Of a stretch of 64,000 bases of DNA, positions 31,658 through 51,939 are shown one piece after another. The position numbers and the translations under genes are program-made. The notes beneath the pieces are model-generated. The model searched no databases, was not told the origin of the DNA, and saw only the letters and a program-made list of their open reading frames with translations. Every line of letters begins with the position of its first letter. Positions within the stretch are counted from its first letter, which is position 1. Source of the DNA: Erythrobacter sp. HL-111 (GTDB lineage: Bacteria; Pseudomonadota; Alphaproteobacteria; Sphingomonadales; Sphingomonadaceae); contig NZ_LT629743.1 in the NCBI RefSeq assembly GCF_900105095.1, forward strand, positions 992,001 to 1,056,000, in the 5' to 3' direction.

Positions 31658-31732
31658 GGGCGTATAGCTCAGTGGTAGAGCACTGTGTTGACATCGCAGG
31701 GGTCGGAAGTTCAACTCTTCCTACGCCCACCA
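31658..31732 (+). tRNA. tRNA-Val(GAC)
   Basis: 75-nt tRNA with encoded CCA. The acceptor stem gggcgta pairs with tacgccc, the D-arm is gctcagtggtagagc, and the anticodon loop is ttGACat inside the stem ctgtg/cgcag (one G-T pair). The T-arm is ggaag/cttcc around ttcaact. GAC reads GUC and GUU valine codons. A terminator follows directly. Confidence 0.93.
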
Positions 31733-32051: not shown

Positions 32052-34349
32052 ATGACCAAGACTTTCAAATCCGTGCTGCTCCTTTCGACGAGCGCGATGC
32101 TGGCCAGCGGTGCGTTCGCCACGCCGCCCGGCTTCGACGGGCCGGGCATGGGACAGGTGCCCGTTCGCGCGGCGGGCGACATGGCTCCGCGCGACGTGCA
32201 GGACTGGTGGCCGGAAGTGGTCGATCTGGAGCGCCTTCGCCAGAACGAGATCGACGCCGATCCGCTCGGCGAAGACTTCGATTACGCCACCGAATTCGCA
32301 AAGCTCGATCTTGCCGAGGTGAAGGCGGACGTGGCGGCCGTGCTCGGGGAGTCGCAGGACTGGTGGCCGGCCGACTACGGCAGCTACACCGGCCTGTTCA
32401 TCCGTCTTGCCTGGCACAGCGCGGGAACCTATCGCTCCGGCGACGGACGCGGGGGGGCCGATGGCGGCCAGATCCGGTTCGAGCCGCTCAACAGCTGGCC
32501 CGACAACGCCAATCTCGACAAGGCGCGGCGTCTGCTGTGGCCGGTGAAACAGAAATACGGCCGCAGCCTGTCGTGGTCCGACCTCATCGTCCTGTCGGGT
32601 AACGTCGCACTCGAACAGGCGGGTCTCGAAACCTTCGGCTTCGCCGGCGGAAGGACGGATGACTGGCAGCCGGAGCTTGTCTACTGGGGGCCGGAGAGCA
32701 AGTTCCTGACGGCTTCGCGCTTCGACCACGGGAAGGGTCGCCCGGCGGGCGAAGGGGAGATTCCGCAAGAGCTGGAAGACGATCTCGGTGCGTCCGAAAT
32801 GGGCCTCATCTACGTCAATCCCGAAGGCCCGGAAGGCAATCCCGACATCCTCGCCTCGGGCGAGCGTATCCGCACGACCTTCGCGCGGATGGGCATGAAC
32901 GACGAGGAAACGGCCGCGCTGATCGTCGGCGGGCACACGCTGGGCAAGAACCACGGGGCAAGCCCGAAGGACTGCATCGGGAAGGAACCCGCGGCGGCAG
33001 GCGTCGCGGAACAGGGTTTCGGCTGGAAGAATTCCTGCGGCACGGGCGCAGGTCCCGACACCACGACGAGCGGCCTGGAGGGCGCCTGGACGGCGACGCC
33101 GGACACCTGGAGCAGCAATTTCCTCGACAACCTCTACGGCTTCGAATGGCGCCTGACGACCAGTCCGGCCGGCGCCAAGCAGTGGATCCCGGTCAACGCC
33201 GACGAGGTCGAATTCGTCCCGGACGCCTTCGACCCGGAGAAATTCCACCCGCCGGTGATGCTCACGACCGACCTCGCGATGCGGTACGACCCCAAGTACG
33301 GGCCGATCACCAGGCGCTGGGCGGAAAATCCGGCGGAGCTGGACGCGGCCTTCGCCCGGGCGTGGTTCAAGCTCACCCATCGCGACATGGGGCCGGCGGC
33401 GCGCTATGTCGGGGCCGAAGTGCCCGGGGAGCAGTTCGTCTGGCAGGACCCGCTCCCGGCGGCGGACTACGAGACCGTCACGAGGTCCGATATCGAGCTG
33501 CTCGAAGGCAAGATCCGCGCTGCCGGGCTTTCGACCTCGGACCTGGTCCGCGCGGCATGGGCCGCGGCCGCGACATATCGCGACACGGACATGCGCGGCG
33601 GAGCGAACGGGTCGCGCATTCGTCTCGCCCCGCAGAAGGACTGGGCCGTCAACGATCCCGAAACCCTGGCCAAGGTCATCGGCGCGATGGAGGCGATCCA
33701 GGCCGAGTTCAACGCCATGGGAACCGGGCGCAAGGTGTCGATCGCCGATCTCGTCGTGCTGGGCGGTACCGTCGCGATCGAGGACGCGGCCAAGGCTGCC
33801 GGCCATGAGATCGACGTGCCGTTCACGCCGGGCCGGGTCGATGCGACGCAGGACATGACGGATACGGAGAGCTTCGAATATCTGCGCCCGGCCGCGGATG
33901 GCTTCCGCAACTTCTACGGCGAAAGGGCCCGTCTCTCGCCGACGGAGATGCTGGTCGATCGCGCGGACCTGCTGACTCTGACCGTACCGGAGATGACGGT
34001 GCTCGTCGCGGGGATGCGGGCGCTCGATGCGAACGCGGATGGTTCGAGGCACGGCGTGTTCACCGACACGCCGGGCGCGCTGACCAACGACTTCTTCGTC
34101 AACCTGCTCGACATGGGGACCGAGTGGTCGCCGGTCGAAGGCGAGGAATACGTCTTCGAGGGCCGCGATCGCAAGACGGGTGAACTCAAGTGGACGGCGA
34201 CCGAGGTCGATCTGGTGTTCGGCTCCAATTCGGAGCTTCGTGCCGTGGCGGAGGTCTACGCCTACGCCGATGGCGAGGAGCGCTTCATCAAGGACTTCGC
34301 GAAGGCGTGGAACAAGGTGATGATGCTCGACCGGTTCGACCTGCGCTGA
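32052..34349 (+). CDS. katG: Exported catalase-peroxidase
   Basis: Bifunctional haem enzyme that destroys H2O2 and oxidises donors. It has 765 residues with a signal peptide ([17 protein letters not shown], cleavage near residue 23), so it should act in the periplasm, unlike the common cytosolic KatG. The distal site is Arg118-Trp121-His122 ([11 protein letters not shown]), the proximal ligand is His295 ([10 protein letters not shown]), and the Met-Tyr-Trp adduct is predicted as Trp121-Tyr254-Met280. All spacings match KatG with a 14-25 residue offset. A cupredoxin gene follows 78 bp downstream. No OxyR site was recognised. Confidence 0.95.
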
Positions 34350-34361
34350 TCGCAAGGGAGA

Positions 34362-34398
34362 GGGCGCGCGGTCGGCCAGGCATGGCTGCCGCGCGCCC
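34362..34398. repeat. Perfect 10-bp stem-loop between katG and the cupredoxin gene
   Basis: gggcgcgcgg (34362-34371) and ccgcgcgccc (34389-34398) pair fully around a 17-nt loop. No T-run follows, so it may be an RNA stability or processing site that separates expression of the two genes. Confidence 0.5.
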
Positions 34399-34427
34399 CT
34401 CCGTCCCCACAAGAAAAGGAGCAGGAC

Positions 34428-34883
34428 ATGCTCGACCGACGCGCCGCCATCCTCGGCACCGTCGCCATGCTGGCATTGCAGGGTTCCCGCGCGCTCGCCG
34501 AACCGGGCCGGCACATCGTCGAAATGACCGGACATCCCGGCGGCGAGATGGCTTTCGCGCCGCGCATCCTGCGTGTCGCCGCCGGCGACGTGGTCACCTT
34601 CCGCCCGGCGGCACCGTCGCACAGCTGCGTTTCGACGCCCGGAATGTTGCCGGCAGGCGCCGAGAGCTGGCGCGGCGGGATCGGCAAGCCGGTCACCCTC
34701 ACCTTTAGCAAGCCCGGCTTCTATGGCGTTCACTGCCTTCCCCACCGAAGTCTCGGCATGGTCGGCCTGGTGATCGTCGACGGGCCCGGGCGCGACGCCA
34801 ATCTCGCGGAAGCGAAGGCGGTGAAACATCCCGGAAAGGCAGCGGCCGCGTGGCAGGAAATCTGGCGCGAGGCGGGGGTCTAG
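34428..34883 (+). CDS. Pseudoazurin-like cupredoxin
   Basis: Exported blue-copper-type electron carrier with 151 residues. The signal peptide is AAILGTVAMLALQGSRALA. Type-1 copper ligands are predicted as His65 (PSHSC), Cys103, His106 and Met111 (GVHCLPHRSLGM). The spacings 38, 3 and 5 are those of pseudoazurin (40, 78, 81, 86). AAGGAG precedes the ATG. It may hand electrons to a periplasmic peroxidase or other oxidase; its place after an exported katG suggests a pairing, which is inference. Confidence 0.8.
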   Translation: MLDRRAAILGTVAMLALQGSRALAEPGRHIVEMTGHPGGEMAFAPRILRVAAGDVVTFRPAAPSHSCVSTPGMLPAGAESWRGGIGKPVTLTFSKPGFYGVHCLPHRSLGMVGLVIVDGPGRDANLAEAKAVKHPGKAAAAWQEIWREAGV

Positions 34884-34983
34884 GCATCCGTCCCGGCCCT
34901 GGGAAGTCACCGGATCGGCCGGCCGCAAGTCCAGGAAATGCAGGGCTTCGCACTCCCTTCGCGCCGCCCGTACTCCCATGCTG

Positions 34984-35014
34984 AAAAAAAGGCCCCGCAC
35001 GGTCATGCGGGGCC
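34984..35014 (-). terminator. Terminator of the TonB receptor gene
   Basis: ggccccgc.../...gcggggcc stem (10 bp plus loop) followed on the minus strand by a run of seven T. It lies 60 bp after the receptor stop codon. Confidence 0.85.
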
Positions 35015-35076: not shown

Positions 35077-37458
35077 TCAGAAGTTGAAACCCAGCTCGAC
35101 ACCGTACAGCCGGGGCGGCGAGAGCGTCCCGAAATCGACGATCGAATTGGTCAGGCCGAAATTGATCTGTTCATCGAACAGGTTCTCGACGAAGGCGGTG
35201 ACGCGGAACATCTCGCGGTCCGGCCCGCCGAAGGCGATCGTCGCCGAGCTGTCGACCCGCCACAGCCCCTCGACGAGGCCGCGCGGCGAGTTGAAGAATT
35301 CCTGGAACCGCTCGCCGACATAGCGCGCATTGCCGTTCAGCTGCAGTTCGCCGAAGCCGAGATCGGCGGTATAGGTCGCCGCCACGCTCCCCGTGATTTC
35401 GGGCGCATTGCGCAAGTCCAGCGTCGACAGGTCGGCGAGGATCAGCGTGCCGGGCGGTTGCGGCGGGGTCGAGATATAGGTCGAGGACGCGATGAAGGCC
35501 TCGTAATCGGTGTATTCCGCATCGAGGTAACCCAGTGTCGCATCGAGCCTGAGCCCTTCGACCGGCAGCGCACTCACTTCCAGTTCGACCCCGCGAATGC
35601 GCGCCTCGGCGACATTGCGCACCGTGGTCGAGGTGAAGGTCGGCGGCGGGCCGGGCTCGATCGCCTCTTCCTGCTTGTCCTTGTATTCGTTCCAGAACAG
35701 CGCCGCGTTCAGGCGCAGCTTGCGATCGAGCAGGTCGAGCTTGCCGCCGATCTCGAAGGAATCGATGATTTCCGGATCGAACGGCGTCGTCACGTCCAGC
35801 ACCGTGCCCGCGCGCGCGCTGAACCCGCCCGCATTGTAGCCGCGCGTGAACGAAGCGTAATAGAGCATGTCCGGGTCCGGTTCCCAGGTCAGCATGACCT
35901 TGGGGGTGAATTCGAACCAGTCCTCGTTCGCCGATCCCGCTTCGGTCAAAGGGCGGCCCTCGGGGATGCCGTCGGTGATCTGGTAGGGCGCGGTCGGCGG
36001 CAGGCCCGCATCGTAGAAGCGTGTCGCGATCCGCTTTTCGTCCCAGGTCGCGCGCCCGCCCAGCGTCAGGGTGAGCGTGTCGGTCATCGCCCAGTCGGCC
36101 TGCGCGAAAATCGCGGTGGTGGTCGCCTCGTGATCGTCCTCGTCGCCCGCGCCGTTGACGAACAGCGCCCCGGGCGGGACCGGCGCGCCGACCAGCGAGA
36201 GATCGAGCTTGATCGCCTGCCTCAAGCTGTATTCGGAATGGAAGTGGAACGCGCCCGCCACGAAGTTGACCGGTCCGTCGAATGAACTCGCCAGCCGGAT
36301 TTCGCCGCTGTACTGGCTGTAATCCTGTTCGCGCACGACGTTGAAGGCGGTGGCGCTCGAACCGTCGAAATCGATGAACACCTCCTCGCGCGAATCCCGC
36401 ATCCCGAATACGGTCGACAGGGTCAGCGTGTCGGAAAGGAAAATGTCGCCCGTCACCGTCAGCGCATCGAGCCTGGCGTCGAGGAAATGCGGGTCGGTCG
36501 AGGTGGAAACCGGGTTGTCGGGATCATTGCAGATGTTCTGGATCAGGCACAGCGGGTCCGGGCCGAAAGCGGGCGTGACCGTCGCGGGAACCGGAAAGGT
36601 CGTCTGGATGAGATCGATCGGAAGCGGCTCCACCCCGGCGATGCCGCGCGGGACGTAAGGGGTGAGGTCGGAATTGTCCTCGGCATGGTCGTAGATGATG
36701 TCGAAGGTCGCGACGCCCGGCTGGTCGATCCGCAGCACCGTGCCGAAGGACCAGCGGTCGCGCGCCCCGCGCGAGCCTCCGGCGGGATTTTCGAAAAAGC
36801 CGTCATCGGTCAGATACTGCCCGCGCACCAGCAGCGAGACGGTGTCGCCGATCAGGGGCGAATTGATCTCGCCGCGATAATCGACCGTGCCGAAATTGCC
36901 GATCGCAACGACGCCGCGCGCGCTGAATTCGCCGGTCGGGCGGCGGCGGGTGGCGTTCAATGCGCCGCCGGTCGTGTTGCGGCCGAACAGCGTGCCCTGC
37001 GGCCCGCGCAGCACCTCGATCCGTTCAAGGTCGAAGGTGTCTAGCAGGTTGAAGGCCGAGGTGCCGAGATAGATCCCGTCGAGGAAAGTGCCGACCGCCG
37101 GATCGAAGCTCTTTTCGGGATCCTGCGAGTTCACCCCGCGGATCGAGACCTGCGCGAGGCTCGGCCCGATCGACACTTCGGTGAGGACCAGGTTCGGCAC
37201 CTGCCCGGTCAGTTCGGAAATGTCGCGGGCGTTGAAGCGCTCGACTTCGGCTTGGTCGAAGGCGGTGATCGCGATCGGCACGTCCTGCTGCGCTTCGGCG
37301 CGGCGTTGGGCGGTGACGACGATCTGTCGCAGGCCCTCGTCGGTGGTCGCCTCGGATCCGCCTTCGGAGACAACCTGCGCGTGTGCGGCAGCCGGCAGGA
37401 CGAGGCAGGCCGACCCCACGGCAAGACCTGCACGCAAGCGCGTAGTGAACTGGCTCAT
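35077..37458 (-). CDS. TonB-dependent outer-membrane receptor 1
   Basis: Outer-membrane beta-barrel of 793 residues that imports a ligand using TonB energy. The signal peptide ends in AHA-Q. A TonB-box-like segment (GLRQIVVTAQRRAEAQQDVP) precedes the plug domain, which contains RGPQGTLFGRNTTGGALN. The barrel ends with ELGFNF, an aromatic C-terminus as required. It is divergent from the thuA-like gene across a shared 104-bp promoter region, so it probably imports a substrate for the catabolic genes (inference). Ligand unknown. Confidence 0.9.
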   Translation of the reverse strand: MSQFTTRLRAGLAVGSACLVLPAAAHAQVVSEGGSEATTDEGLRQIVVTAQRRAEAQQDVPIAITAFDQAEVERFNARDISELTGQVPNLVLTEVSIGPSLAQVSIRGVNSQDPEKSFDPAVGTFLDGIYLGTSAFNLLDTFDLERIEVLRGPQGTLFGRNTTGGALNATRRRPTGEFSARGVVAIGNFGTVDYRGEINSPLIGDTVSLLVRGQYLTDDGFFENPAGGSRGARDRWSFGTVLRIDQPGVATFDIIYDHAEDNSDLTPYVPRGIAGVEPLPIDLIQTTFPVPATVTPAFGPDPLCLIQNICNDPDNPVSTSTDPHFLDARLDALTVTGDIFLSDTLTLSTVFGMRDSREEVFIDFDGSSATAFNVVREQDYSQYSGEIRLASSFDGPVNFVAGAFHFHSEYSLRQAIKLDLSLVGAPVPPGALFVNGAGDEDDHEATTTAIFAQADWAMTDTLTLTLGGRATWDEKRIATRFYDAGLPPTAPYQITDGIPEGRPLTEAGSANEDWFEFTPKVMLTWEPDPDMLYYASFTRGYNAGGFSARAGTVLDVTTPFDPEIIDSFEIGGKLDLLDRKLRLNAALFWNEYKDKQEEAIEPGPPPTFTSTTVRNVAEARIRGVELEVSALPVEGLRLDATLGYLDAEYTDYEAFIASSTYISTPPQPPGTLILADLSTLDLRNAPEITGSVAATYTADLGFGELQLNGNARYVGERFQEFFNSPRGLVEGLWRVDSSATIAFGGPDREMFRVTAFVENLFDEQINFGLTNSIVDFGTLSPPRLYGVELGFNF

Positions 37459-37523
37459 TTTCCCTCTCCCCGTCGCCGCCCGCCCCGTGCCGCTACGGCA
37501 TTGGGGCTTGCGGCGCTCACAAA

Positions 37524-37556
37524 CTTTTTGACAGGCCAGTAAGAAAAGTCAAGATT
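37524..37556. promoter_or_regulatory. Overlapping divergent promoter region of receptor 1 and thuA-like gene
   Basis: TTGACA (37528-37533) on the plus strand with a 17-nt spacer to AAGATT (37551-37556) faces TTGACT on the minus strand (37547-37552), so the two -35 elements face each other. Both -10s are weak. A near-palindrome ACAGGCCAGT (37531-37540; 8 of 10) sits between the -35 elements. Confidence 0.4.
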
Positions 37557-37562
37557 AGCACT

Positions 37563-38381
37563 ATGGAGAGGTCAGGCACGGGCAAGGAGCGCGCCCTCGA
37601 AAGCGTCCAGGCAGGCGGGCGGCGCGAGGTCCGGCTCGTGGTCGGCGGCATGGCGCATGATTTCGATTTCGTGCGGATGGAACTGCTCCGCGCGCTGGGC
37701 CGCGATCCGCGCAACCGGGTGGCGGTGTCCTCCGGTTTCGAGGAGTTCGAGGGCGACACGCGAACGGCGCTGATCAGCTATACCTGCAATGTCGAACCAT
37801 CGCCCGAGGCTGCGCAGCGCCTGCGGCGTTTCGTCGAGTGCGGCGGGCGCTGGCTCGCGCTCCATGCGACCAATTCGCTGCTCGAATGGAGCGAGGAAGG
37901 CGTATCGGGGCGGCCTGCGTGCGGCGATTTCCTCGAGACGCTCGGCTCCTCCTTCCAGGCGCATCCGCCGATCGCGCCCTACGAGGTGCGGCCCGGTCCG
38001 GTCGCGGACCCGCTGACCGCTGGCGTCGCCCCCTTCACGATCGAGGACGAGCTTTATCTTTCGGACTATGCCGAAAGCGAGGACGGGTGCGAAATCGAGG
38101 TGCTGCTCCACGCGTGTTTCGGCGGTGCGGCGCCCGGTTTCGTGCGCGACGACTGGCCCGAGGGCGAGCAGGCGGTGCTCTATCGCCGCAGGCTGGGCGC
38201 AGGCGAAGTGCTCTATTTCACGCCCGGCCATGCGCGCGGCCATTACGACGCGCCCCATCGCACGCCGTTCTATCCGGATGTGGAGCGCGGCGCATGGGAG
38301 GAGCCGGCCTTCCGCGAAGTGCTCGGACGGTGCCTGCGCTGGGTCTGCCGCCAGCCCGTGCTTGAAGGAGAACACGCATGA
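37563..38381 (+). CDS. ThuA-like domain protein
   Basis: 272-residue protein with the ThuA/glutamine-amidotransferase-like fold. Motifs are VVGGMAHDFDFVRMELLRAL, LISYTCNVEPS, RWLALHATNSLLEW and YFTPGHARGHYDAP. ThuA proteins are named for trehalose use but many occur in other catabolic clusters. It is the first gene of a three-gene run with ATGA overlap to the next gene. The plus-strand promoter would leave an almost leaderless mRNA. Function here is unknown. Confidence 0.78.
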   Translation: MERSGTGKERALESVQAGGRREVRLVVGGMAHDFDFVRMELLRALGRDPRNRVAVSSGFEEFEGDTRTALISYTCNVEPSPEAAQRLRRFVECGGRWLALHATNSLLEWSEEGVSGRPACGDFLETLGSSFQAHPPIAPYEVRPGPVADPLTAGVAPFTIEDELYLSDYAESEDGCEIEVLLHACFGGAAPGFVRDDWPEGEQAVLYRRRLGAGEVLYFTPGHARGHYDAPHRTPFYPDVERGAWEEPAFREVLGRCLRWVCRQPVLEGEHA

Positions 38382-38956
38382 GAGGACCGGGCCTTCCCCC
38401 GCTGGCCGACGAGGAAATTCCCGAAAGCCTCGCCAAGGTAATCGAGGCGTGGCCCTACAATCTCCACCGGACCCTGGCCCATTCGCCCGGCACCCTGCTC
38501 AAATGGCTGCCTTATGGCGAGCATATCCTGAAGGAGAACGCCCTCCCCTTCCGCGAGCGCGAAATCGCGATCCTGCGCGTGGGGTGGAACTGCAGATGCG
38601 CCTATGAATGGGGGATGCATTCGCTGGTCGCGCGGCGCGGCGGGTTCGGGGATGCGGATTTCGAGGCGCTGTGCGTCGGGGCGGACAGCCCGCACTGGAC
38701 CAACGGAGAGGCGGCGGTGGTGGCGGCGGTCGACGACATGATGCGCGACTGGACGATTTCGCAAGACGTGTGGGCGCGGCTGGCGGCGCATTACGCGCCC
38801 GAACAGCTGGTCGACCTCGTCTGGCTCTCGGGCAACTTCATGACGATTGCGCTGCAACTGAACGCGCTGCGCGTGCCGCTCGAGGAGGGGCTGCCGCCGC
38901 TGCCCGATGACGCACCCCTCTACACCAGGGCCACACCATTCGTAACAGGGAGCTGA
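38378..38956 (+). CDS. Carboxymuconolactone decarboxylase-like protein
   Basis: Protein of 192 residues from the AhpD/CMD family. The active-site-like helix is VGWNCRCAYEWGMHS (Cys-x-Cys and His), preceded by ENALPFREREIAILRV. True CMDs open gamma-carboxymuconolactone in protocatechuate breakdown, and AhpD members are thiol reductases; the sequence does not settle which applies. It overlaps the thuA-like stop and lies 2 bp before the SDR gene. Confidence 0.82.
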   Translation: MRGPGLPPLADEEIPESLAKVIEAWPYNLHRTLAHSPGTLLKWLPYGEHILKENALPFREREIAILRVGWNCRCAYEWGMHSLVARRGGFGDADFEALCVGADSPHWTNGEAAVVAAVDDMMRDWTISQDVWARLAAHYAPEQLVDLVWLSGNFMTIALQLNALRVPLEEGLPPLPDDAPLYTRATPFVTGS

Positions 38957-38958
38957 GA

Positions 38959-39717
38959 ATGGACCTCGAAATGAAGGGCGCCAAGGCGATCGTCACCGGG
39001 GCGACGCGGGGGATCGGCAACCGGATCGCCGAAAGGCTGTTCGAAGCCGGGGCGGACCTCGCCTTCTGCGCGCGCGACGCGCAGGCGGTGGCGCACTGCG
39101 AGAAGGGCTGGGCCGAACGCGGCTTTCGCGCAAAGGGGACGGCCGTCGATGTCGGGGACCCGCAGGCCTATCGGAAATGGCTCGCCGACGCCGCGCACTG
39201 GCTCGGCGGGTGCGATGCCTTCGTCCATAACGTGTCGGGCGGAGGCGGCGCGGGCGGCGACGAGAAATGGCGGCTCAATTTCGAAATCGACATGATGGGC
39301 GCGGTGCGCGGACTGGAGGCGCTCGAAGACGATCTTGCGAAGGACGGGGGCGCGGTGCTGTTCGTCTCGAGCACGGCCGGGCTCGAAACCTATCCCTTCG
39401 TCCAGCCCTACAACGTGATGAAGGCGGGGCTGATCGTCTATGCCAAGCAGATCAGCAAGCTGCTTGGCAGGAAGGGCGTGCGGGTCAACTGCATCTCGCC
39501 CGGCGCAACGACCTTTCCCGGCGGCAACTGGGAGCGGCACAAGGTGAACCATCCCGACTATTACGATGCGACGGTGGCCGAGATCCCCTTCGGCCGGCTC
39601 GGCACGGCGGAGGAGGTGGCGGACGCTGCGGTGTTCCTGCTGAGCAGGCGCGCCTCGTGGATCACGGGGGCGAACCTGATCGTCGATGGCGGGCAGACGC
39701 GGCGCGTCTCGCTCTAG
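38959..39717 (+). CDS. Short-chain dehydrogenase/reductase (SDR) 1
   Basis: NAD(P)-dependent oxidoreductase of 252 residues in a Rossmann fold. The cofactor motif is TGATRGIGNRIAERL, the catalytic Ser is in VLFVSSTAG, and YNVMK carries the catalytic Tyr and Lys. The C-terminal GANLIVDGG segment is classic. The stop codon TAG shares bases with that of the oppositely oriented SDR2. It may oxidise an alcohol made by the oxygenases (inference). Confidence 0.88.
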   Translation: MDLEMKGAKAIVTGATRGIGNRIAERLFEAGADLAFCARDAQAVAHCEKGWAERGFRAKGTAVDVGDPQAYRKWLADAAHWLGGCDAFVHNVSGGGGAGGDEKWRLNFEIDMMGAVRGLEALEDDLAKDGGAVLFVSSTAGLETYPFVQPYNVMKAGLIVYAKQISKLLGRKGVRVNCISPGATTFPGGNWERHKVNHPDYYDATVAEIPFGRLGTAEEVADAAVFLLSRRASWITGANLIVDGGQTRRVSL

Positions 39718-40490
39718 CCCGCAATGCTCGCGCCGCCATCGACGGGAAGGTCGATACCGGTGATGAAGGCGGAATCCTCGCAGGCGAGGAACAGCACCGC
39801 TTTCGCGACGTCCTCGGGCAGCACGATCCGCCCCGTCGCTGCGCCCAGCGGGTGGACCGCCACGCGGCGGGCGTAGTTCGCCTCGCGCTCCTGCTCGCTC
39901 GCGCCGAGATTGGCCTCCATCATCGGCGTCAGGGTCGATCCCGGATGGACGGCATTCACGCGGATATATTCGCCGCGCCCGGCGAAATGCAGCGCATAGG
40001 CCTTGGTCTGGGCGCGCAGGGAGGCCTTGGCGGCGCAATAGGCCGGAAGCGCGGCATTGGGCCTCAATGCGAGAAGCGAGCCGACATTGACGATCGCGGC
40101 ATGGTTCGATGCGCGCAGCAAGGGGGCCATGGCCTGCACCGAATGGAAAATGCTGTCCGCATTGATCCGCTGGAACCGCTCCCAGAAACCGGCATCGATG
40201 CTGTCCACGTCGCCCATGCCGGAGATCCCGGCATTGTTGACCAGCACGTCGAGCCGCCCGTGCCGCCGCTCGATCGCGCTCGCCAGCCTGTCCCAATGTG
40301 CCCGCTCGGCCACGTCGAGCAGCGCGCCCTCCGCGCCCTCCCCCAGCTCCCCGGCGAGCGCAAAGGCCGCCTCGCTTTCCAGGTCGGCGCAGATCACGTG
40401 GGCGCCCTCGGCAAGCAGGAGCCGCGCCACTGCCGCGCCGATCCCGCCCGCAGCGCCCGTCACCAGCGCGATGTGTCCGGCAAGCTTCAT
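39714..40490 (-). CDS. Short-chain dehydrogenase/reductase (SDR) 2
   Basis: 258-residue oxidoreductase. The cofactor motif is TGAAGGIGAAVARLL, the adenine-binding Asp is in ICADLES (suggesting NAD preference), the structural NNAG is present, and YCAAK gives the catalytic Tyr and Lys. The end has VDGGASIAG. The start overlaps the MFS stop as ATGA. It is the last gene of the operon that begins at the ferredoxin. Confidence 0.9.
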   Translation of the reverse strand: MKLAGHIALVTGAAGGIGAAVARLLLAEGAHVICADLESEAAFALAGELGEGAEGALLDVAERAHWDRLASAIERRHGRLDVLVNNAGISGMGDVDSIDAGFWERFQRINADSIFHSVQAMAPLLRASNHAAIVNVGSLLALRPNAALPAYCAAKASLRAQTKAYALHFAGRGEYIRVNAVHPGSTLTPMMEANLGASEQEREANYARRVAVHPLGAATGRIVLPEDVAKAVLFLACEDSAFITGIDLPVDGGASIAG

Positions 40491-41806
40491 GTTTCTCTGC
40501 GAAGCGCGCGATAGGGACGAAAGGCGGCGAGCAGCAGGACGAAGGCGACCGGCGCCGAAACCGCGTTCACCCAGGCAAGCGAATAGCGCACGCCCTCGGG
40601 ACCGGTGAACAGCGCATCGTTGAACACCCCCACCACCAGCGGCCCTGCGCCCAGCCCGACGAGGTTGATGACGAGCATGTAGAGCGCGCTCACCTGCCCG
40701 CGCATCCGGCCCGGCGTCACCAGCTGGATCGCGGTCCCGGCCATCGGATAGGGCATGGTCGACATCAGCATGGCGGGCGCGAAGACCGCCAGAGCCGTTT
40801 CTCCGGTCGGCATCAGCGGGCCGAGTCCGCCGAACAGGCCGGTGCCGAGATAGCCCCACGCCGCCACCTTCAACGGCGCATCGCGCGACCCCCGGGCCGT
40901 CATCCGGTCGCAGATGGTCCCCGCCAACAGCGCGCCCGCAGGCCCCAGGACGAGATAGAGCGCGCCATAGGCGATCCCGATCTCGCCCGCCGACCAGCCG
41001 AAAGCGCGGATGAACAGGGCCGGGGTCCATACGGTCGAAGCATAGCCCGACAGGGTGATCATGCTGAACCCTGCAAAGACAAGCGCCAGGGTGCGGCGTT
41101 GCCCGGAAAGATGCGCGGCGACCGCGCGCAGGGGGACCTTCGCCTGTCCCTTACCGCCGCGCCGCTCCGGCTCCTTCAGCACCAGCAGCAGCGCCAGCGC
41201 GACGAGCAGGCCGGGCACGGCGACCAGCAGGAAGGTCCGCCGCCACGGGGCGAGCTCGCCAAGAAAGCCCGGCGCGTCCCACCTCGCCACAGCCGCGATC
41301 GCCACTCCGCCCGCAATATAGGCAAGGCCGATGCCGATGAAGGCGGTCATGGTGAAGACGCTCATCGCCCGGCCCAGCTTCTCGGGCGGGAACATGTCGG
41401 AGATGATCGAATAGGCGGTCGGCACGACGCTCGCCTCGCCTGCGCCGACACCTATCCGGGCGATGAACATCTCGCCGAATGTGCGCGCCAGGCCCGAAGC
41501 CAGCGTGAACAGGCTGAAGACCGCGACCCCGATGGCGATGATCGGCTTGCGCGGCCCGTTGTCGACCAGCCGCCCGATCGGCAGCGCCATGGCGGTGTAG
41601 AACAGGCCGAAGGCGACGCCCTGCAACAGGCCGAACCCGGTGTCGCTGATCGCCAGATCGCGCTGGATCGGCTCGACCAGCAGGTTGATGACGATCCGGT
41701 CGAGATAGGACAGGACATTGGCGAGCGCGAGGATCGCGAGCGCAGTCCAGGCGAGCCTTGCCGCGGGCCATGGCCGAGCCTCGAGGAACCCGGCCTCGGC
41801 CTTCAA
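40487..41806 (-). CDS. MFS transporter, Spns/sphingolipid-type subfamily-like
   Basis: Permease with 439 residues and about 12 helices. The segment LSYLDRIVINLLVEPIQRDLAISD is typical of MFS proteins found in sphingomonad catabolic clusters, and GVGAGEASVVPTAYSIISDM fits the same group. It starts with TTG, overlapping the tetR stop as TTGA, with GAGGA upstream. It may import the substrate or export an intermediate. Its ligand is not known. Confidence 0.82.
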   Translation of the reverse strand: MKAEAGFLEARPWPAARLAWTALAILALANVLSYLDRIVINLLVEPIQRDLAISDTGFGLLQGVAFGLFYTAMALPIGRLVDNGPRKPIIAIGVAVFSLFTLASGLARTFGEMFIARIGVGAGEASVVPTAYSIISDMFPPEKLGRAMSVFTMTAFIGIGLAYIAGGVAIAAVARWDAPGFLGELAPWRRTFLLVAVPGLLVALALLLVLKEPERRGGKGQAKVPLRAVAAHLSGQRRTLALVFAGFSMITLSGYASTVWTPALFIRAFGWSAGEIGIAYGALYLVLGPAGALLAGTICDRMTARGSRDAPLKVAAWGYLGTGLFGGLGPLMPTGETALAVFAPAMLMSTMPYPMAGTAIQLVTPGRMRGQVSALYMLVINLVGLGAGPLVVGVFNDALFTGPEGVRYSLAWVNAVSAPVAFVLLLAAFRPYRALRRET

Positions 41807-42507
41807 GCCGCATCGTCCTCGTGCGCGCCCCGGGCCACCTTGCGCAGCAGCGCGACGCCTTCCTGCGTGCCGATCAGCAGCTTGAGAAAGCGCAGCAGCG
41901 CGCCTGTCCGTTCCTCGCGATTGAACGTGATGCCGTCCTGCTGTGCCACCCCTTCGAGAAGGAAGCGCACGATGTCGCGGCGCAGGTCGAATTCGACGCT
42001 GTCCGAAAGGTAGCGCGGGAAGAGGCCCAGCGCCGCTTCGCGCCGCGCGCGGTCGAAGGCGGCGAGCGCGGGCTCCATCAGCGCGCGCAATGCGGGATCG
42101 GTGCGCGAGGCCAGCGAGAGTTCGGTATAGGCCTCGAATTCCGGGGTCTGGAGCTGCTCCCAGGCGATATCGACCGCGCGTTCGAGGAAGCCCTCGTCAT
42201 GCGGCAGGCCCTCCATCGCCGCGGTGTACATGTCGATCCTGCGGCGGGTGACATGGCGGATGATCGCCTCGATCAACTCGGCGCGCGATCCGAAATGGTA
42301 GAGCATGGCCGCGCGCGTGATCCCGGCCTCTTTCGCAACGCCGGTGGTGGAGAGCTTCTTGTAGCCGTCCCGCGCCAGCACGGCGACGCCCGCACCGAGG
42401 ATCCTGAGGCGCGTGCGGCGCGAGCGGTTGAATTCGCCGGAGCTCAGCGCCGCCGGGTCGGGCAGGCGGGTGATGTGGCTGTTTTCGGTGTCGTCTCGAT
42501 CGTTCAT
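41803..42507 (-). CDS. TetR family transcriptional regulator
   Basis: Repressor-type regulator of 234 residues. The HTH is in LARDGYKKLSTTGVAKEAGITRAAMLYHFGSRAELIEAII (quoted in parts), a clear TetR_N domain after a 30-residue extension. The C-terminal helices form the ligand pocket. It is embedded in the operon between P450 and MFS genes, with overlaps of 4 nt on both sides. It is the best candidate to bind the palindromes upstream of the ferredoxin and oxygenase genes. Confidence 0.88.
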   Translation of the reverse strand: MNDRDDTENSHITRLPDPAALSSGEFNRSRRTRLRILGAGVAVLARDGYKKLSTTGVAKEAGITRAAMLYHFGSRAELIEAIIRHVTRRRIDMYTAAMEGLPHDEGFLERAVDIAWEQLQTPEFEAYTELSLASRTDPALRALMEPALAAFDRARREAALGLFPRYLSDSVEFDLRRDIVRFLLEGVAQQDGITFNREERTGALLRFLKLLIGTQEGVALLRKVARGAHEDDAA

Positions 42508-43763
42508 CGCTCGAATTCCAGAGGCAGGCAAATCATGCCCCGTTGGTGGAAATTCGTGCGAAAGGGAAGGTCGTCTTCGCTGCCCACGAGCCGGACCGAT
42601 CGGTAGCGCGTCAGAATCTCGCCGAGCGCGAGCCGCATTTCGAGCCGCGAGAGCGCCGCGCCGACGCAGAAATGGATCCCGCTGCCGAAGGCCATGTGCG
42701 GCTTTGGCGGCTTGCGGTCCAATCGGACCTCGCCCGCCCCTTCGCCCCAGACCTTCTCGTCGCGATTGGCCGCGCCGAACCGGACATGGAGCATGGTGCC
42801 ATCGGGGATGGTGTGCCCTCCCAAGCGCTGTTCGCCGACGGCCTTGCGGAACTGGCCCTGGATCGGGCTGTCCAATCGCAGCACTTCCTCGAGGAAGGAG
42901 GCGATCTTGTCCGGTTCGCCCCCGAGCCGCGCAAACAGCGCCGGATCGCGGGCGAGGCGCAGCAGGGCAAACCCGAGCGTGGAGGTTGTCGTCTCGTTGC
43001 CCGCCACCATCAATTGCGTGAGGATCGAAAGCAGTTCCGGATTGTCGAGCGGTTCGCCATCGGGTTTTCGCGCATTGGCGAGCGCGGTGATGATGTCCTC
43101 GCCCTCTCCCCCGCGCCTTTCGTCGCACAGCGCGACCATCGCCCTGTGGCATTCGAGCGTGAGCCTGGCGATCTCGACGGCGCGCTCGTCGCTGGTGAGG
43201 AACCCGATCTCGTCGGCGAAGGCATCGGACCAGCGTTTCACCGTCTCGTCGCCGAGGTGCCGCATCCCCAGATATTCGCCGATCACCGAAACCGGCAGCG
43301 GGACGGCGAAATCGGGGAAGAAATCGCACGCGCCGCCCTTCGCATCGATCGCATCCAGCAGTTCACCGATCCGCGCGGCGACGAAGGGTTCCATCGTCTT
43401 GAGACGGCGCGGCAGGAAGAAGGGGCCGACGAGCTTGCGATAGTCGTCGTGGCTCGGCCCGTCGTTCTGGACCATTGTGAGCGCGAGCGGCCACCCCTGC
43501 GCCTTGATCTCCAGCACTTCGGCAGGCAGCCCGCCCTTGCGCATCGCGGCGCGGTCGGCAAAACTGGAAAAGCGGGTGTGGCTGCGCATCACCTCTTCGG
43601 CCAACACGTAATCGAGCACGAAGACGACGCCCGTTTCCGGTTCCTCCCAGAGCGGCCCCTGCTCCTCGCGCATCGCCTCGTAGGCCAGCCACGGCGCGCG
43701 CATGAAGCCCGCCGCGCGCGGTTTCGGTTCCCCCGGGCGGGCGATATCCTCAACCCTGTCCAA
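42504..43763 (-). CDS. Cytochrome P450
   Basis: Haem monooxygenase of 419 residues, soluble bacterial type. The haem loop is FGSGIHFCVGAALSR with Cys366, the I-helix motif is AGNETTT (254-260), and the ExxR motif is Glu293-Arg296. The first codon is TTG, 14 nt inside the preceding Rieske gene. The operon's Rieske ferredoxin could supply electrons, but no reductase gene is present. Substrate unknown; terpenoids and aromatics are typical for such clusters. Confidence 0.92.
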   Translation of the reverse strand: MDRVEDIARPGEPKPRAAGFMRAPWLAYEAMREEQGPLWEEPETGVVFVLDYVLAEEVMRSHTRFSSFADRAAMRKGGLPAEVLEIKAQGWPLALTMVQNDGPSHDDYRKLVGPFFLPRRLKTMEPFVAARIGELLDAIDAKGGACDFFPDFAVPLPVSVIGEYLGMRHLGDETVKRWSDAFADEIGFLTSDERAVEIARLTLECHRAMVALCDERRGGEGEDIITALANARKPDGEPLDNPELLSILTQLMVAGNETTTSTLGFALLRLARDPALFARLGGEPDKIASFLEEVLRLDSPIQGQFRKAVGEQRLGGHTIPDGTMLHVRFGAANRDEKVWGEGAGEVRLDRKPPKPHMAFGSGIHFCVGAALSRLEMRLALGEILTRYRSVRLVGSEDDLPFRTNFHQRGMICLPLEFER

Positions 43764-45108
43764 GGCTCTTGTCCAGCATCGCGTGGAAATGGCGGATGCG
43801 CGCTTCCTGGTAAGCGCCGGTCACCGGGCCAGTCTTGCGCATCGTCCTGAGGCCCCGCTGGAGCGCGGCGAGATTGGCCGAATCCTCGTCGAAGACGGCG
43901 CAATATCCACCCAGCTGGGGCGCTTCCTGAAGGCTCGCATCGGGGCCGACCACCTGCGGCTCGGGCACGGCACCGGGATCGCCGCCGGGGACGACGAACA
44001 TGATGTCCATGACGCTCATGTCGGGGTCGGTGCCGAGCGGGCGGAAGCGATAGACGAGATAGCTCCCCCAGCCTGCCCAGCACACGAGATTGGGAAAGAC
44101 GTGATACTGGATCGTGTCGATCAGTTCGCAATCGGTCGCTTCCGCGGCGATTTCGACCCCCTGCCCGACCAGCGCCTTGCGCCGCGCCGCGGCGATCGCC
44201 TCGCGCGCGCTTTCGGCGGTATCGGGCAGGGTCAGCGCGTCCGCCGCATCGCCCAGCGCGGGGCGCATCCCGGCGCGGTAGACCTCCTCGTCCGAAAGCG
44301 GCCCGACATTCGGGCTCGCGAGCCCGCGCGGGGAGATCATGCGGGTGTGCGCCGTCCCTTCCCACACGTCGTACTGGGTGTTCGCATCGCCCAGATAGGG
44401 CGCCGCGCTGGCATGGGTTTCGGTGACGTGGAAGCTTTCGATGAAAGCCTCGAGCGCGATCTTCCAGTTGCAGCGGTTGATCTTCTGGACATGGACCGCC
44501 TTGGTCCGCTCGGCCAGCGACCAGCCGCGCGTCTCGTAGGCCTCGACCACGGGACCGAGGAAGTGCTCGAGGCTCTGCTCGCATCCGTCCGGGCAGACGA
44601 AGACGAATCCGCCCCAGATTCCCACCTGCGCTTCCGGCAGTGCGAAATCGGCCTTGTCGACATGGGCGAAATCCCATTCGTTGACGATCCGCTTGCACGC
44701 CCCGTCCAGGCCCCATGTGAAACCGTGAAAGGGGCAGCGGAATTCGCTGGCCGTGCCGTCCGCATCGCGCAGCGCGCGGCCGCGATGCAGGCAGGCGTTG
44801 AAGAACGCCTTGACCGTGTCCCTGTCCGAACGGACAACGATCAGGGAAATTTCGGCGATCTCGTAGAGGACATAGTCTCCCACTTCCGGAATATCCTCGA
44901 GCCGGCAGGCCATCTGCCAGGTCCGGGGCCACAGCCGCGCATTCTCGAGCGCGGCGAAATCCGGGTCGTAATAACGCCTCCGGTCGATCGGTTTGACGGG
45001 GACCGAGGCCTCGCCGCGCTCGGCAAGGAGCGGGGGCACGGGACGCTTTTCGCGCGCGAGCATCTGGCTGAGCGTCGGCCGCGGGGCCCTTGGTGAACGC
45101 TGGGGCAT
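43750..45108 (-). CDS. Rieske oxygenase alpha subunit 2
   Basis: Non-haem oxygenase of 452 residues. Rieske ligands are Cys106, His108, Cys125 and His128 (CLHRGR and CPFHGFTW), and the iron site is IESFHVTETH (His227, His232). Sequence style resembles ring-hydroxylating oxygenases of aromatics or terpenoids without a beta subunit. I chose the ATG at 45108 (GGAGAG 8 nt upstream) over one at 45156, which would run through the palindrome. The stop overlaps the P450 start. Confidence 0.88.
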   Translation of the reverse strand: MPQRSPRAPRPTLSQMLAREKRPVPPLLAERGEASVPVKPIDRRRYYDPDFAALENARLWPRTWQMACRLEDIPEVGDYVLYEIAEISLIVVRSDRDTVKAFFNACLHRGRALRDADGTASEFRCPFHGFTWGLDGACKRIVNEWDFAHVDKADFALPEAQVGIWGGFVFVCPDGCEQSLEHFLGPVVEAYETRGWSLAERTKAVHVQKINRCNWKIALEAFIESFHVTETHASAAPYLGDANTQYDVWEGTAHTRMISPRGLASPNVGPLSDEEVYRAGMRPALGDAADALTLPDTAESAREAIAAARRKALVGQGVEIAAEATDCELIDTIQYHVFPNLVCWAGWGSYLVYRFRPLGTDPDMSVMDIMFVVPGGDPGAVPEPQVVGPDASLQEAPQLGGYCAVFDEDSANLAALQRGLRTMRKTGPVTGAYQEARIRHFHAMLDKSLGQG

Positions 45109-45134
45109 TGCAAGTCTCTCCGCGCACCTTTTTA

Positions 45135-45146
45135 CATACCTGTATG
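45135..45146 (-). promoter_or_regulatory. Candidate TetR operator before the Rieske oxygenase
   Basis: CATACCTGTATG has perfect 5-nt arms around two bases. It lies between the ferredoxin and oxygenase genes and shares 10 of 11 bases with the site at 45599-45610 (tatRcctgtat). Confidence 0.5.
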
Positions 45147-45159
45147 AATTCTGCAAGGC

Positions 45160-45480
45160 TCAGGGCCGGACCCACACCTCCCCCCCGGTGATCCGGACTT
45201 CGTACGTGCCGAGTGCCCGGCGCGTCGGTCCGGCCGTCGGGGCGCCGTCGGCAAGGCGAAACCGCGCACCGTGAAACGGGCAGGCGATCGTCCCGCCCCT
45301 CACCCGCCCGTTGGCCAGGGACTGCCCCGCATGGGGGCAGCGCGCATCCACGGCGAAAACCATCGTGCCCGACCGGCACAGCAGGACCTCCCGCCCGCCC
45401 AGCCCGACCGCGAGCGGGCGCGCGGCGGGGATCGCGTCCACCCGGCCCGCGCATTGCCAACCCCGTTCGCCATCGCCCAT
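45160..45480 (-). CDS. Rieske-type ferredoxin
   Basis: Electron carrier of 106 residues. The 2Fe-2S ligands are Cys48, His50, Cys67 and His70 (ARCPHAG and ACPFHG), spacing C-x-H-x16-C-x2-H. The start at 45480 (MGDGERGWQ) gives the usual length and has AGAGG 6 nt upstream; a start at 45591 would add 37 residues. It is the first gene of the oxygenase operon and probably feeds the Rieske oxygenase and perhaps the P450. Confidence 0.82.
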   Translation of the reverse strand: MGDGERGWQCAGRVDAIPAARPLAVGLGGREVLLCRSGTMVFAVDARCPHAGQSLANGRVRGGTIACPFHGARFRLADGAPTAGPTRRALGTYEVRITGGEVWVRP

Positions 45481-45598
45481 CGCGAGCCTCTTTGCCCCAG
45501 CTTGCCTGACCGCGCGCTTTCGCAAACGGACCTCCGGCCGCGCGCCCAGCCATGGGCACCCGTCTGCCGTCTGCGGGTCGACAAGCGCCATTTTTTGA

Positions 45599-45610
45599 TA
45601 TGCCTGTATA
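45599..45610. promoter_or_regulatory. Second candidate TetR operator
   Basis: TATGCCTGTATA, with 8 of 12 palindromic matches, shares the core with the site before the oxygenase. It lies upstream of the ferredoxin gene and just before the small ORF on the other strand, so it could control both directions. Confidence 0.4.
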
Positions 45611-45640: not shown

Positions 45641-45880
45641 ATGCAGCTAGACCGTCCCGCCCTTATTGAGGTCTGTCGCAGCAAGGAGGAACTGCAACGG
45701 GTTCGCGCCGAGGACCCGCTGCCCCTCTTCCGCGAACGCGCAACCGGCGAGGCCCGCCTTGAAGCAAGCGATCTCGACCCGCTCGATGCCGAACGCGCGA
45801 AAGCCCTGCCTGCCTGGCCTTCGATATTCGCAGGTCGCAGGAAAGCCGCGTTGCGATCAAAGAATGTTTTTGCGCCTTGA
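45641..45880 (+). CDS. Doubtful small ORF upstream of infA
   Basis: 79 codons with an acidic, Leu/Glu-rich product (MQLDRPALIEVCRSKEELQRV...). AGGGA lies 9 nt before the ATG. No family is recognised, and the region is otherwise without a gene between the ferredoxin and infA. It may be a remnant or an unrecognised small protein. Confidence 0.3.
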   Translation: MQLDRPALIEVCRSKEELQRVRAEDPLPLFRERATGEARLEASDLDPLDAERAKALPAWPSIFAGRRKAALRSKNVFAP

Positions 45881-46079: not shown

Positions 46080-46346
46080 TTGGCGAAGGAAGAGCTCATT
46101 ACGCTGGAGGGCGAGATCGACGAGGTCCTGCCCGACGGGCGCTTCGGCGTCACCCTCGACAATGAGCATCGCATCATCGCCTACACGGCAGGAAAGATGC
46201 GCCGTTACCGGATTCGATCGGTCGCTGGCGACCGCGTGCATGTCGAGATGACGCCCTACGATCTGACCAAGGGTCGGATCGTCTTCCGCGAAAGGACCCC
46301 CGGCCAAGGTGCCGGCGGTGCCCGCAAGCGCGGATTCAGGCGCTGA
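46080..46346 (+). CDS. infA: Translation initiation factor IF-1, second type
   Basis: Ribosome-binding OB-fold factor of 88 residues. It starts with TTG ([20 protein letters not shown]), with GGGAG 7 nt upstream, and shows the IF-1 signature [24 protein letters not shown] and [11 protein letters not shown]. The tail is Gly/Arg-rich. The sequence is closer to the infA2 type seen beside a canonical infA than to the usual alphaproteobacterial IF-1 (from memory). The long AT-rich leader suggests regulation of its own. Confidence 0.85.
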
Positions 46347-47157: not shown

Positions 47158-48219
47158 GTGTCGATGCAGTCCGAAGATGCTCCGTCGGTTCCGACCGACT
47201 GGACCAGGAGCATCAGCTATCAGAGCCGGGCAACCGCAAGACCGACCGCGGCGGACCTGCGCGAACTGGTCTCGAAGGCCGAGGCCCGGAACCAGACCCT
47301 CGGCGTGACCGGGATGCTGCTTTACGACAAGGGCCGCTTTTTCCAGACTCTGGAAGGCCCGCCGAGGGCCATCGAAACCTTGTGGACCTCGATCCGCAGC
47401 GACCCGCGCCACACCGACATCGAGGTGCTGAGCGAGCACGTCATCCCTTCCCGCCTGTTCGGCGGGTGGAACCTGCTCGGCTATCACGGCGACGAAGTGC
47501 CCGAGGCGACACTGCGCCAGGCGAAGGCCGAGCATGAACTGACGGGCGAGATCCCGCAATTCATCGACCTTGTCCTCAATGGCGACGACATCGGCATCAA
47601 TCGCAAGATCGCCGCACTGATCGAGAGCGGGTGGAAGGGCGACCTGATCCTGACCCACCTGATCGAACCGACCGCGCGCGCGCTCGGCGATGCGTGGCTG
47701 TCCGACGACTGCTCCGAGCTGGATCTGGCGATCGGGCTCAGCATGTTGCAGCTCGCGGGCCACGCCATCGTGCACGATCCGACGCCGGCGAAGCTCCGCA
47801 CCAGCCAGTACCGCATCCTGCTCGCCACCGCGCCGGGGGAGCCGCACATGCTCGGGACCTCGCTGCTCGCGGATCTCTTCACCGATGCCGGCTGGAATGT
47901 CGACATGGCGTTTCCCGACAGCAATCAGGCGCTCGCCAACCAGCTCGCCGCGCAGCAGCCCGACGCGGTGGACATCGGGCTGTCGGACGCGCTTTCGCGC
48001 AAGAACAGCCTCGCGCTGCTGCGGCGGACGATCGAGCGCAGCCGGTTCGCCGCCCCCGATCACCTGACCGTGGTGTCCGTCGGGGGGCGCCTGTTTTCGG
48101 AGGCCGCGGCGACTGCCGAGAATGTCGGCGCGGATTACGCCCGCAAGACCGTGGCAGGCGCGAGCATCCGGATCGCCGAGCTCATCAGGCTCAAGCGGCA
48201 GGAACACCGCCAGACCTGA
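47158..48219 (+). CDS. BLUF-SCHIC blue-light sensor, AppA-like
   Basis: 353-residue sensor. The N-terminal BLUF domain (about 15-110) binds FAD; Tyr21, Asn45, Gln63 and Trp104 fall at the same numbers as in Rhodobacter AppA, with Leu106 in place of its Met106. The second half (about 150-340) is a B12-binding-type SCHIC domain (LLATAPGEPHMLGTSLLADLFTDAGW and VVSVGGRLF). The AppA C-terminal Cys-rich region is missing. AppA relieves PpsR repression of photosynthesis genes in light and oxygen; a similar role here is inference. GTG start with GGGAG upstream. Confidence 0.85.
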   Translation: MSMQSEDAPSVPTDWTRSISYQSRATARPTAADLRELVSKAEARNQTLGVTGMLLYDKGRFFQTLEGPPRAIETLWTSIRSDPRHTDIEVLSEHVIPSRLFGGWNLLGYHGDEVPEATLRQAKAEHELTGEIPQFIDLVLNGDDIGINRKIAALIESGWKGDLILTHLIEPTARALGDAWLSDDCSELDLAIGLSMLQLAGHAIVHDPTPAKLRTSQYRILLATAPGEPHMLGTSLLADLFTDAGWNVDMAFPDSNQALANQLAAQQPDAVDIGLSDALSRKNSLALLRRTIERSRFAAPDHLTVVSVGGRLFSEAAATAENVGADYARKTVAGASIRIAELIRLKRQEHRQT

Positions 48220-49343: not shown

Positions 49344-49353
49344 CGCCCCTCGC

Positions 49354-51852: not shown

Positions 51853-51939
51853 TGTTTCGTTTCCTGCCTGAGCTTGTTTCGGGAGTGCGCCCATATCGCC
51901 GGGGATTGGCTACTGCAAGTGCGAATCAGTAGCGATTTT

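Follow-up and report, generated by a model that had tools for sequence, protein, structure and literature searches.

The window analyzed here is a stretch of 64,000 nucleotides from Erythrobacter sp. HL-111, which corresponds to bases 992001-1056000 of a single-contig genome of 3.19 Mb. It carries a compact cluster of ten genes, which encode a TonB-dependent outer-membrane receptor, a ThuA-like protein, a carboxymuconolactone-decarboxylase/AhpD-like (CMD-like) protein, two short-chain dehydrogenases (SDR-A and SDR-B), an MFS transporter, a TetR-family regulator, a cytochrome P450, a Rieske oxygenase and a Rieske-type ferredoxin. We propose that the cluster is a single TetR-controlled catabolic module for uptake, two hydroxylations, dehydrogenation and C-C cleavage, a reading to which we assign a probability of roughly 0.6. 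At the level of sequence, its support covers the gene set, the conservation of this set, a dyad at both arms, an acoABC trio that is present in relatives and most likely lost here, and a sister module in the same genome. Comparison of loci supports the view that the ten genes behave as one system of receptor, permease, regulator, two oxygenases and two dehydrogenases. Genes of common families would thereby become one testable system with a named switch, TetR and its predicted dyad.

Conservation of the gene set and a shared dyad

A profile built from 27 Rieske relatives was scanned over species genomes and gave 397 relatives; the best 80 loci among them were then searched with all ten window proteins. 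At least seven of the nine non-ferredoxin genes occur in nine of these best 80 loci (L037, L038, L040, L041, L042, L045, L046, L054 and L112); L044 holds six of the nine and the other 70 hold fewer. These nine loci and L044, together with the window, L124, L125 and L132, are the 14 loci compared below. Ten of the 14 have the full set of nine. The incomplete loci are L132 (no ThuA), L037 (no receptor), L046 (no receptor or CMD) and L044 (no receptor, ThuA or MFS), and a contig end lies close by in L037, L046 and L044. The gene order of the window is kept in L124, L125, L037, L038, L040, L042 and L132 and is rearranged in L041, L045, L046, L054 and L112; the persistence of the same set despite a changed order argues for selection on the set.

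Orthologues of the P450 and of the Rieske oxygenase (at least 60% identity) occur in the same six of 298 family genomes, with adjacent coordinates in all six, and a Rieske orthologue at E 1e-130 is found in 3 of 114 genus genomes. Relatives of the Rieske oxygenase at 87-89% identity are named Erythrobacter. In the Rieske tree, the enzymes of the 14 loci fall within one 23-row clade (support 100/99), separate from the actinobacterial enzymes and from the second copy in the window genome. Judged by record titles, the module occurs patchily in several families, with two or more proteobacterial classes represented; because the module is patchy but so widely spread, the compound that it handles is probably widespread. 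A preliminary description of this locus had proposed comparing the gene order across Erythrobacteraceae; the pairing of P450 and Rieske oxygenase in the 298 family genomes and the survival of the nine-gene set under rearrangement in other proteobacteria go beyond chance. Owing to this conservation and to the shared dyad, chance neighborhood was rejected as an explanation. The same description placed the ferredoxin in the oxygenase chain, which is correct for the window, but among the 14 loci the ferredoxin is a cluster member only here and in L124 and L125; weak ferredoxin matches in L054 and L112 fall inside the Rieske oxygenase gene itself.

To the left of the cluster lies a gene pair for a KatG-type peroxidase and a plastocyanin/azurin-like protein (window positions 32052-34883). 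The pair is kept (85% and 65% identity) in G359, a genome without a Rieske orthologue, and the flanks of the L124 and L125 clusters differ from those of the window, so the block occupies different chromosomal places. Flank comparison with G359, L124 and L125 could not show its insertion site, and a tRNA-Val at 31658, 3.3 kb from the receptor gene, is not implicated.

The second line of evidence is a dyad, TACA-N4-TGTA-WAAAA, which lies at both arms of the cluster and was first noticed when the spacers of the window and of seven relatives were read side by side; its consensus over 27 sites is T-Y-W-TACA-NNNN-TGTA-WAAAA. The matrix used on the window was made from nine sites, chosen by eye from the spacers of five other loci (L037, L038, L040, L042 and L132) and excluding the window. 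On both strands of the 64 kb, the three dyads of the window (Table 1) rank 1-3 among distinct sites (24.7, 22.0 and 21.8 bits), followed by sites at 14.9 and 8.3 bits. None of 200 order-2 Markov simulated windows reaches 21.7 bits, and 11 of 200 stretches of 20 kb of random sequence at 50% GC do so; a single dyad in an AT-rich spacer is therefore weak evidence, and the argument is that three stand at the right places. Over the whole genome, a pattern fitted to the three dyads has no further match with 0-1 mismatch, and its two matches with two mismatches equal the two of the control. No dyad was called at 34968-34988, in the spacer separating the azurin-like and receptor genes: its 14.9 bits are not significant, since a score of at least 14.8 bits arises in 16 of the 200 simulations.

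The wider scan of other loci used a matrix that includes the window sites. In the rearranged L041 it placed dyads 5' of the receptor gene, in the spacer of SDR-B and the Rieske gene and 5' of the MFS gene; in L045, L046 and L044 they occupy promoter-like positions; in L124 a dyad at 5705-5725 lies between acoA and the ferredoxin gene (gene starts 5674 and 5828). None was found in the actinobacterial loci L047, L050 and L058 or in the sister module of the same genome. The shared dyad at both arms suggests that these form one TetR regulon, and the dyad is probably the TetR operator covering both. The preliminary description named a lack of co-expression of the two arms as a refutation, and the shared dyad speaks against such a lack. 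The dyad and the acoA remnant beyond the ferredoxin gene are two features which that description did not contain. If TetR binds as predicted, it offers a direct route to the substrate: a compound that releases TetR from 37524-37544 would be a candidate.

The ten genes, their strands and their tight packing, as described earlier, are borne out by open reading frames, Pfam matches and measured gaps. Matches above the gathering score comprise TonB plug and barrel, ThuA, CMD, adh_short_C2 (twice), MFS_1, TetR_N, p450, Rieske with Ring_hydroxyl_A, and Rieske; the ThuA-like protein scores 44.2 vs 33.4 bits for PF06283, and the P450 has the heme Cys motif, ExxR and the acid-alcohol pair. The receptor and ThuA genes diverge from a spacer of 104 nt. 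Gaps in the right-pointing arm are -4 nt (ThuA-CMD) and +2 nt (CMD-SDR-A), and SDR-A and SDR-B meet tail to tail at -4 nt. Those in the left-pointing arm are -4 nt at SDR-B/MFS, MFS/TetR and TetR/P450, -14 nt at P450/Rieske oxygenase and +51 nt at Rieske oxygenase/ferredoxin. Of the 4-14 nt overlaps reported earlier, the 4 nt overlap thus stands at several junctions, whereas the 14 nt overlap requires the P450 to start with TTG at 43763 (an ATG at 43703 leaves a 46 nt gap instead) and the ferredoxin junction is a gap. For the ferredoxin gene, 45480 is the most likely start, which makes the remaining stretch to 45610 leader and dyad.

Table 1. Genes and other features of the cluster, in window coordinates.
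Feature	Position	Strand	Remarks
TonB-dependent outer-membrane receptor, 793 aa	35077..37458	-	PF00593, PF07715; 52-94% identical copies in 10/13 other compared loci
Operator-like dyad, receptor/ThuA divergent promoter, TCTTACTGGCCTGTCAAAAAG	37524..37544	-	22.0 bits (matrix from other genera); exact pattern match
ThuA-like protein, 272 aa	37563..38381	+	Subfamily accompanying this Rieske enzyme
CMD-like protein, 192 aa	38378..38956	+	PF02627
SDR-A, 252 aa	38959..39717	+	PF13561; G-x3-G-x-G and Y-x3-K present
SDR-B, 258 aa	39714..40490	-	PF13561 (scan without first 14 residues); motifs checked
MFS transporter, 439 aa	40487..41806	-	PF07690
TetR-family regulator, 234 aa, proposed dyad binder	41803..42507	-	PF00440 (scan from residue 21); co-conserved with dyad in most loci
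Cytochrome P450, 419 aa with TTG start	42504..43763	-	PF00067; FGSGIHFCVG, ExxR, AGNET motifs
Rieske oxygenase, alpha subunit only, 452 aa	43750..45108	-	Rieske + Ring_hydroxyl_A
Operator-like dyad 5' of Rieske oxygenase, TCATACAGGTATGTAAAAAGG	45127..45147	-	24.7 bits, top-scoring window position
Rieske-type ferredoxin, 106 aa	45160..45480	-	PF00355; CPH...CPFH; among 14 compared loci only window, L124, L125
Operator-like dyad between ferredoxin and acoA remnant, TTATACAGGCATATCAAAAAA	45591..45611	-	21.8 bits
Decayed acoA (E1-alpha) remnant	45641..45808	+	Residues 1-13, then about 252-295; remainder lost

Proposed route and fate of the product

In the proposed mechanism, the TetR repressor would hold both arms off via the shared dyad until an inducer, either the substrate or a product, releases it. 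To judge from their families, the receptor and the MFS protein would import a compound whose size or hydrophobicity keeps it from passing through porins. Two positions would be hydroxylated by the P450 and the Rieske monooxygenase, with electrons supplied by the Rieske ferredoxin and a reductase whose gene lies elsewhere, and the two SDRs would oxidize the alcohols to an alpha-hydroxyketone or alpha-diketone. Most speculatively, the C-C bond might be cut in L124 and L125 by the thiamine- and lipoyl-dependent AcoABC complex, and in the window strain by ThuA/CMD or the sister module's E1-alpha/beta pair. Uptake, two oxidations and dehydrogenation of one hydrophobic compound had been suggested before; one cluster with fitting families was found, and the chemistry is still read from those families.

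We tentatively consider a bolder possibility, namely a new route to break unactivated C-C bonds, in which the P450 and the alpha-only Rieske enzyme would hydroxylate neighboring carbons, the SDRs would turn the product into an alpha-diketone or acyloin, and cleavage of this to an acyl-CoA would fall to a thiamine/lipoyl complex or to the ThuA-like protein in its place. The Rieske enzyme, SDR-A, SDR-B, ThuA and E1 recur together in Pseudomonadota and Actinomycetota, and in the window version the recurring oxygenase, SDR and ThuA parts sit inside a receptor-plus-TetR module. If true, the diketone-cleaving route would be a new step in the aerobic breakdown of hydrophobic natural compounds.

The lead on the fate of the product, which was not evident in the preliminary description, is an acoABC trio that two close relatives possess and of which the window keeps a remnant. 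Beyond the ferredoxin of L124 and L125, whose Rieske oxygenases are 87-89% identical to that of the window, a trio read in the opposite direction encodes E1-alpha, E1-beta and a lipoyl/alpha-beta-hydrolase E2. The L124 E2 scores above the NCBI acetoin-dehydrogenase (AcoC) equivalog cut-off (361.4 vs 307 bits), E1-alpha falls below both listed equivalog cut-offs and E1-beta reaches one subfamily cut-off. In the window, residues 252-295 of acoA are recognized at 73% identity (tblastn E = 1.5e-14 against 64 kb) and residues 1-13 at 77%; DNA alignment to the 5' ends of the intact acoA genes of L124 and L125 supports the remnant, after which comes infA at 46080. Because L125 branches outside the pair of window and L124 in the Rieske tree (support 99/94) and the trio is present in both L124 and L125, its loss most likely occurred in the window lineage. 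E1-alpha at 94% identity or more is found in only two of the 114 genus genomes (L124 and L125). More widely, E1-alpha lies within the 10-kb flanks of the Rieske relative in 38 of the best 80 loci, 37 of which also have E1-beta, and all 38 are Actinomycetota except L106. ThuA and SDR-A matches stand beside the Rieske gene in 36 of 68 loci (L047-L116 minus L054 and L112); related Streptomyces account for many of them, and the SDR match is not necessarily orthologous.

A larger, divergent relative of the cluster lies at about 2.128-2.160 Mb of the same genome (L148 and L127; about 2128001-2165000). Identities to the window proteins are 35% for the P450, 46% for SDR-B, 39% for ThuA, 37% for the Rieske enzyme and 43% for SDR-A. 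This sister module has an E1-alpha/beta pair by Pfam, at about 2.158 Mb, and, as recognized by eye, a lipoyl gene and genes resembling those for CoA ligase, acyl-CoA dehydrogenase, thiolase and DUF35 proteins. In G309 and G346 the Rieske gene of this module has 95-96% identity. In a check covering eight carriers among the 14 loci, a further sister-type Rieske gene (E 1e-60) was found in all eight (G000, G309, G346, G278, G038, G030, G113 and G256) and ThuA outside the cluster in seven. Among the 298 genomes, ThuA outside the cluster occurs in five of six carriers vs any ThuA in 63 of 292 others (Fisher p 0.003); with three carriers of one genus and three of another, the co-occurrence of cluster and sister module is only suggestive. 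The window cluster may feed the sister module or be its compact cousin. Elsewhere in this genome (L130, 5867-13547) lies a further P450 cluster, with SDRs, TetR and histidine-phosphatase-like, CoA-ligase-like and TonB-receptor-like genes recognized by eye, and near-identical open reading frames at L130 15082-16395 and L131 16344-17654, compared in part, are probably an insertion sequence.

Several findings weigh against the proposed module. Most of the 38 E1-bearing loci are closely related Streptomyces, no E1 was found within the fetched flanks of the nine window-type loci with at least seven genes, and AcoABC adjoins the cluster in only 2 of 14 loci. An E1-alpha homologue at 55-58% identity also occurs in three genus genomes that have no Rieske orthologue, and the window genome has lost acoA, so AcoABC cleavage cannot be its present route. 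L132 lacks ThuA, and in L054 and L112 the dyad was not found although the genes are present. The order of the oxidation steps is a guess, and co-expression of the arms and TetR binding are predictions from sequence.

The sister module bears on an unlikely alternative, in which the cluster would be the upper part of a 9,10-seco route for steroids or bile acids like that of Sphingobium Chol11, and the Rieske enzyme would act like KshA. The receptor, P450, SDRs and Rieske enzyme suit sphingomonad steroid metabolism, and genes resembling those for thiolase, DUF35, acyl-CoA dehydrogenase or Mce proteins were recognized by eye in the sister module and in L050, a Nocardia relative; in the available part of one source, Chol11 and Caenibius also seem to be without a distinct KshB reductase (PMC8399759). 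Against this, TIGR03213 (BphC-type extradiol dioxygenase) has no genome match at E 0.001, HsaC itself not having been a query, the genome has, by our reading of its Rieske matches, three Rieske oxygenases, KshA likewise not having been a query, and no ketosteroid-dehydrogenase family occurs among the ten genes.

The trio bears in turn on whether the cluster, instead of serving nutrition, detoxifies or inactivates a toxic natural compound or a signal. TetR-MFS pairs are common in defense against toxic compounds, and the set is compact, with no CoA ligase or ring cleavage among its ten genes. However, a dedicated TonB receptor would import the compound, and the product of acoABC in relatives is acyl-CoA, which is a catabolic outcome; we consider this purpose improbable.

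Rieske oxygenase type and electron supply

The two hydroxylations of the proposed module depend on the type of its Rieske oxygenase. When aligned with CntA, its bridging residue is a glutamate, E224, which stands three residues before the first iron histidine (H227, followed by H232) and is invariant in 27 Rieske sequences. CntA is also the top fold match, at 18-20% identity over the model. No beta-subunit gene was found by Pfam among the ten cluster genes, to which the search for one was confined, and cluster-internal gaps of at most 273 nt in L037, L038, L040 and L042 leave no room for one. The bridging site has Glu and not the dioxygenase Asp, with one residue fewer than in the displayed dioxygenases. 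The cluster's want of a beta-subunit gene and the bridging Glu together make ring dihydroxylation unlikely, and the enzyme appears to be of the monooxygenase type and not a usual alpha-beta ring dioxygenase. Of the two oxidation steps suggested earlier, two oxygenases in one cluster therefore stand, with ring dihydroxylation an unlikely form for either.

The likeness to CntA raises the oxidative N-dealkylation of a large quaternary-ammonium compound, which we regard as a doubtful alternative. The Cys206/Cys209 pair of Group V, as given in the available part of PMC10952381, is replaced by S225 and V228, no CntB-type reductase occurs among the ten genes, and the enzyme scores 93 bits against GbcA (cut-off 670). 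Least probable is a ring-hydroxylating dioxygenase route for an aromatic, with dioxygenation followed by cis-diol dehydrogenation by SDR-B: the Rieske enzyme has its best NCBIfam match in HcaE (95 bits against a cut-off of 830) and SDR-B resembles 2,3-dihydro-2,3-dihydroxybenzoate dehydrogenase (154.9 bits, cut-off 300), but the subunit and bridging-site findings just given oppose it, as do the absence of a ring-cleavage family from the cluster and of a BphC-type match from the genome.

As for electron supply, the reductase that the preliminary description found not evident is indeed missing from the cluster, but a ferredoxin reductase candidate is encoded elsewhere in the genome, at 2387328-2388593. 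Five Rieske matches in the genome are read as three Rieske oxygenases; the third, of 390 aa, lies in the window at 16284-17456 and scores 90.6 bits against GbcA (glycine betaine monooxygenase; cut-off 670). A PADLOC scan of the cluster's Rieske enzyme gave no match. To the right of the cluster, 47164-48219 encodes a BLUF blue-light sensor domain fused to one that resembles a B12-binding domain (PF02310, at 31.8 bits slightly below the cut-off of 32.1), and at 48261-51894 a MauG/MbnH-like di-heme enzyme (below cut-offs) adjoins a TonB-dependent-receptor-like gene (by eye) on the same strand.

Comparison with known systems

The ThuA-like protein shares fold and family score with the ThuA family (PF06283, trehalose utilization); unlike in ThuA/ThuB trehalose catabolism, no ThuB-type oxidoreductase occurs among the ten genes. 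The window subfamily travels with Rieske and SDR genes in Pseudomonadota and Actinomycetota, and we know of no reaction for it. A sequence search of solved structures with the ThuA profile gave nothing convincing (best E 0.12). Acetoin dehydrogenase AcoABC resembles the E1-alpha, E1-beta and lipoyl/alpha-beta-hydrolase E2 trio beside the L124 and L125 clusters; unlike in AcoABC systems, the window keeps only an acoA fragment, and the trio is linked to oxygenases and a TonB receptor with a dyad in common.

Among oxygenase systems, the carnitine monooxygenase CntA (Rieske Group V; available parts of PMC7948474 and PMC10952381) has a like alpha-only Rieske fold and bridging Glu, with no beta-subunit gene in the cluster. 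It differs from the window enzyme, which has no Cys pair, is accompanied by a Rieske ferredoxin and not a CntB-type reductase, and has P450, ThuA and TonB receptor genes as neighbors. Sphingomonad steroid and bile-salt clusters (Chol11; PMC8399759, in its available part) likewise combine TonB receptors, SDRs and Rieske oxygenases with seemingly no dedicated reductase, but the window cluster is without ring-degradation genes. The lumichrome operon of Nocardioides simplex (PMC12746152) shares a P450, a Rieske enzyme and a thiamine-dependent step; in the accessible portion of that source it has a two-subunit Rieske dioxygenase and pyrimidine-ring hydrolase, xanthine-oxidase-like and catechol-dioxygenase genes, none of which is among the ten here, and lumichrome catabolism was rejected for this different gene set. 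Other gene sets are also described in the available parts of a lignin-dimer review (PMC12997858) and of a report on the phenanthrene regulator PheR, which is of the IclR family (PMC13273656). No description of the present set was found among the matches listed in the open-access literature, subscription journals being mostly outside its scope; the earlier statement that no described pathway has this exact set agrees with this, and no characterized sphingomonad copy was found among those matches. The cluster thus appears to be a receptor-linked oxygenase cluster of a known kind, in which the unusual set of partners and the predicted control site are new.

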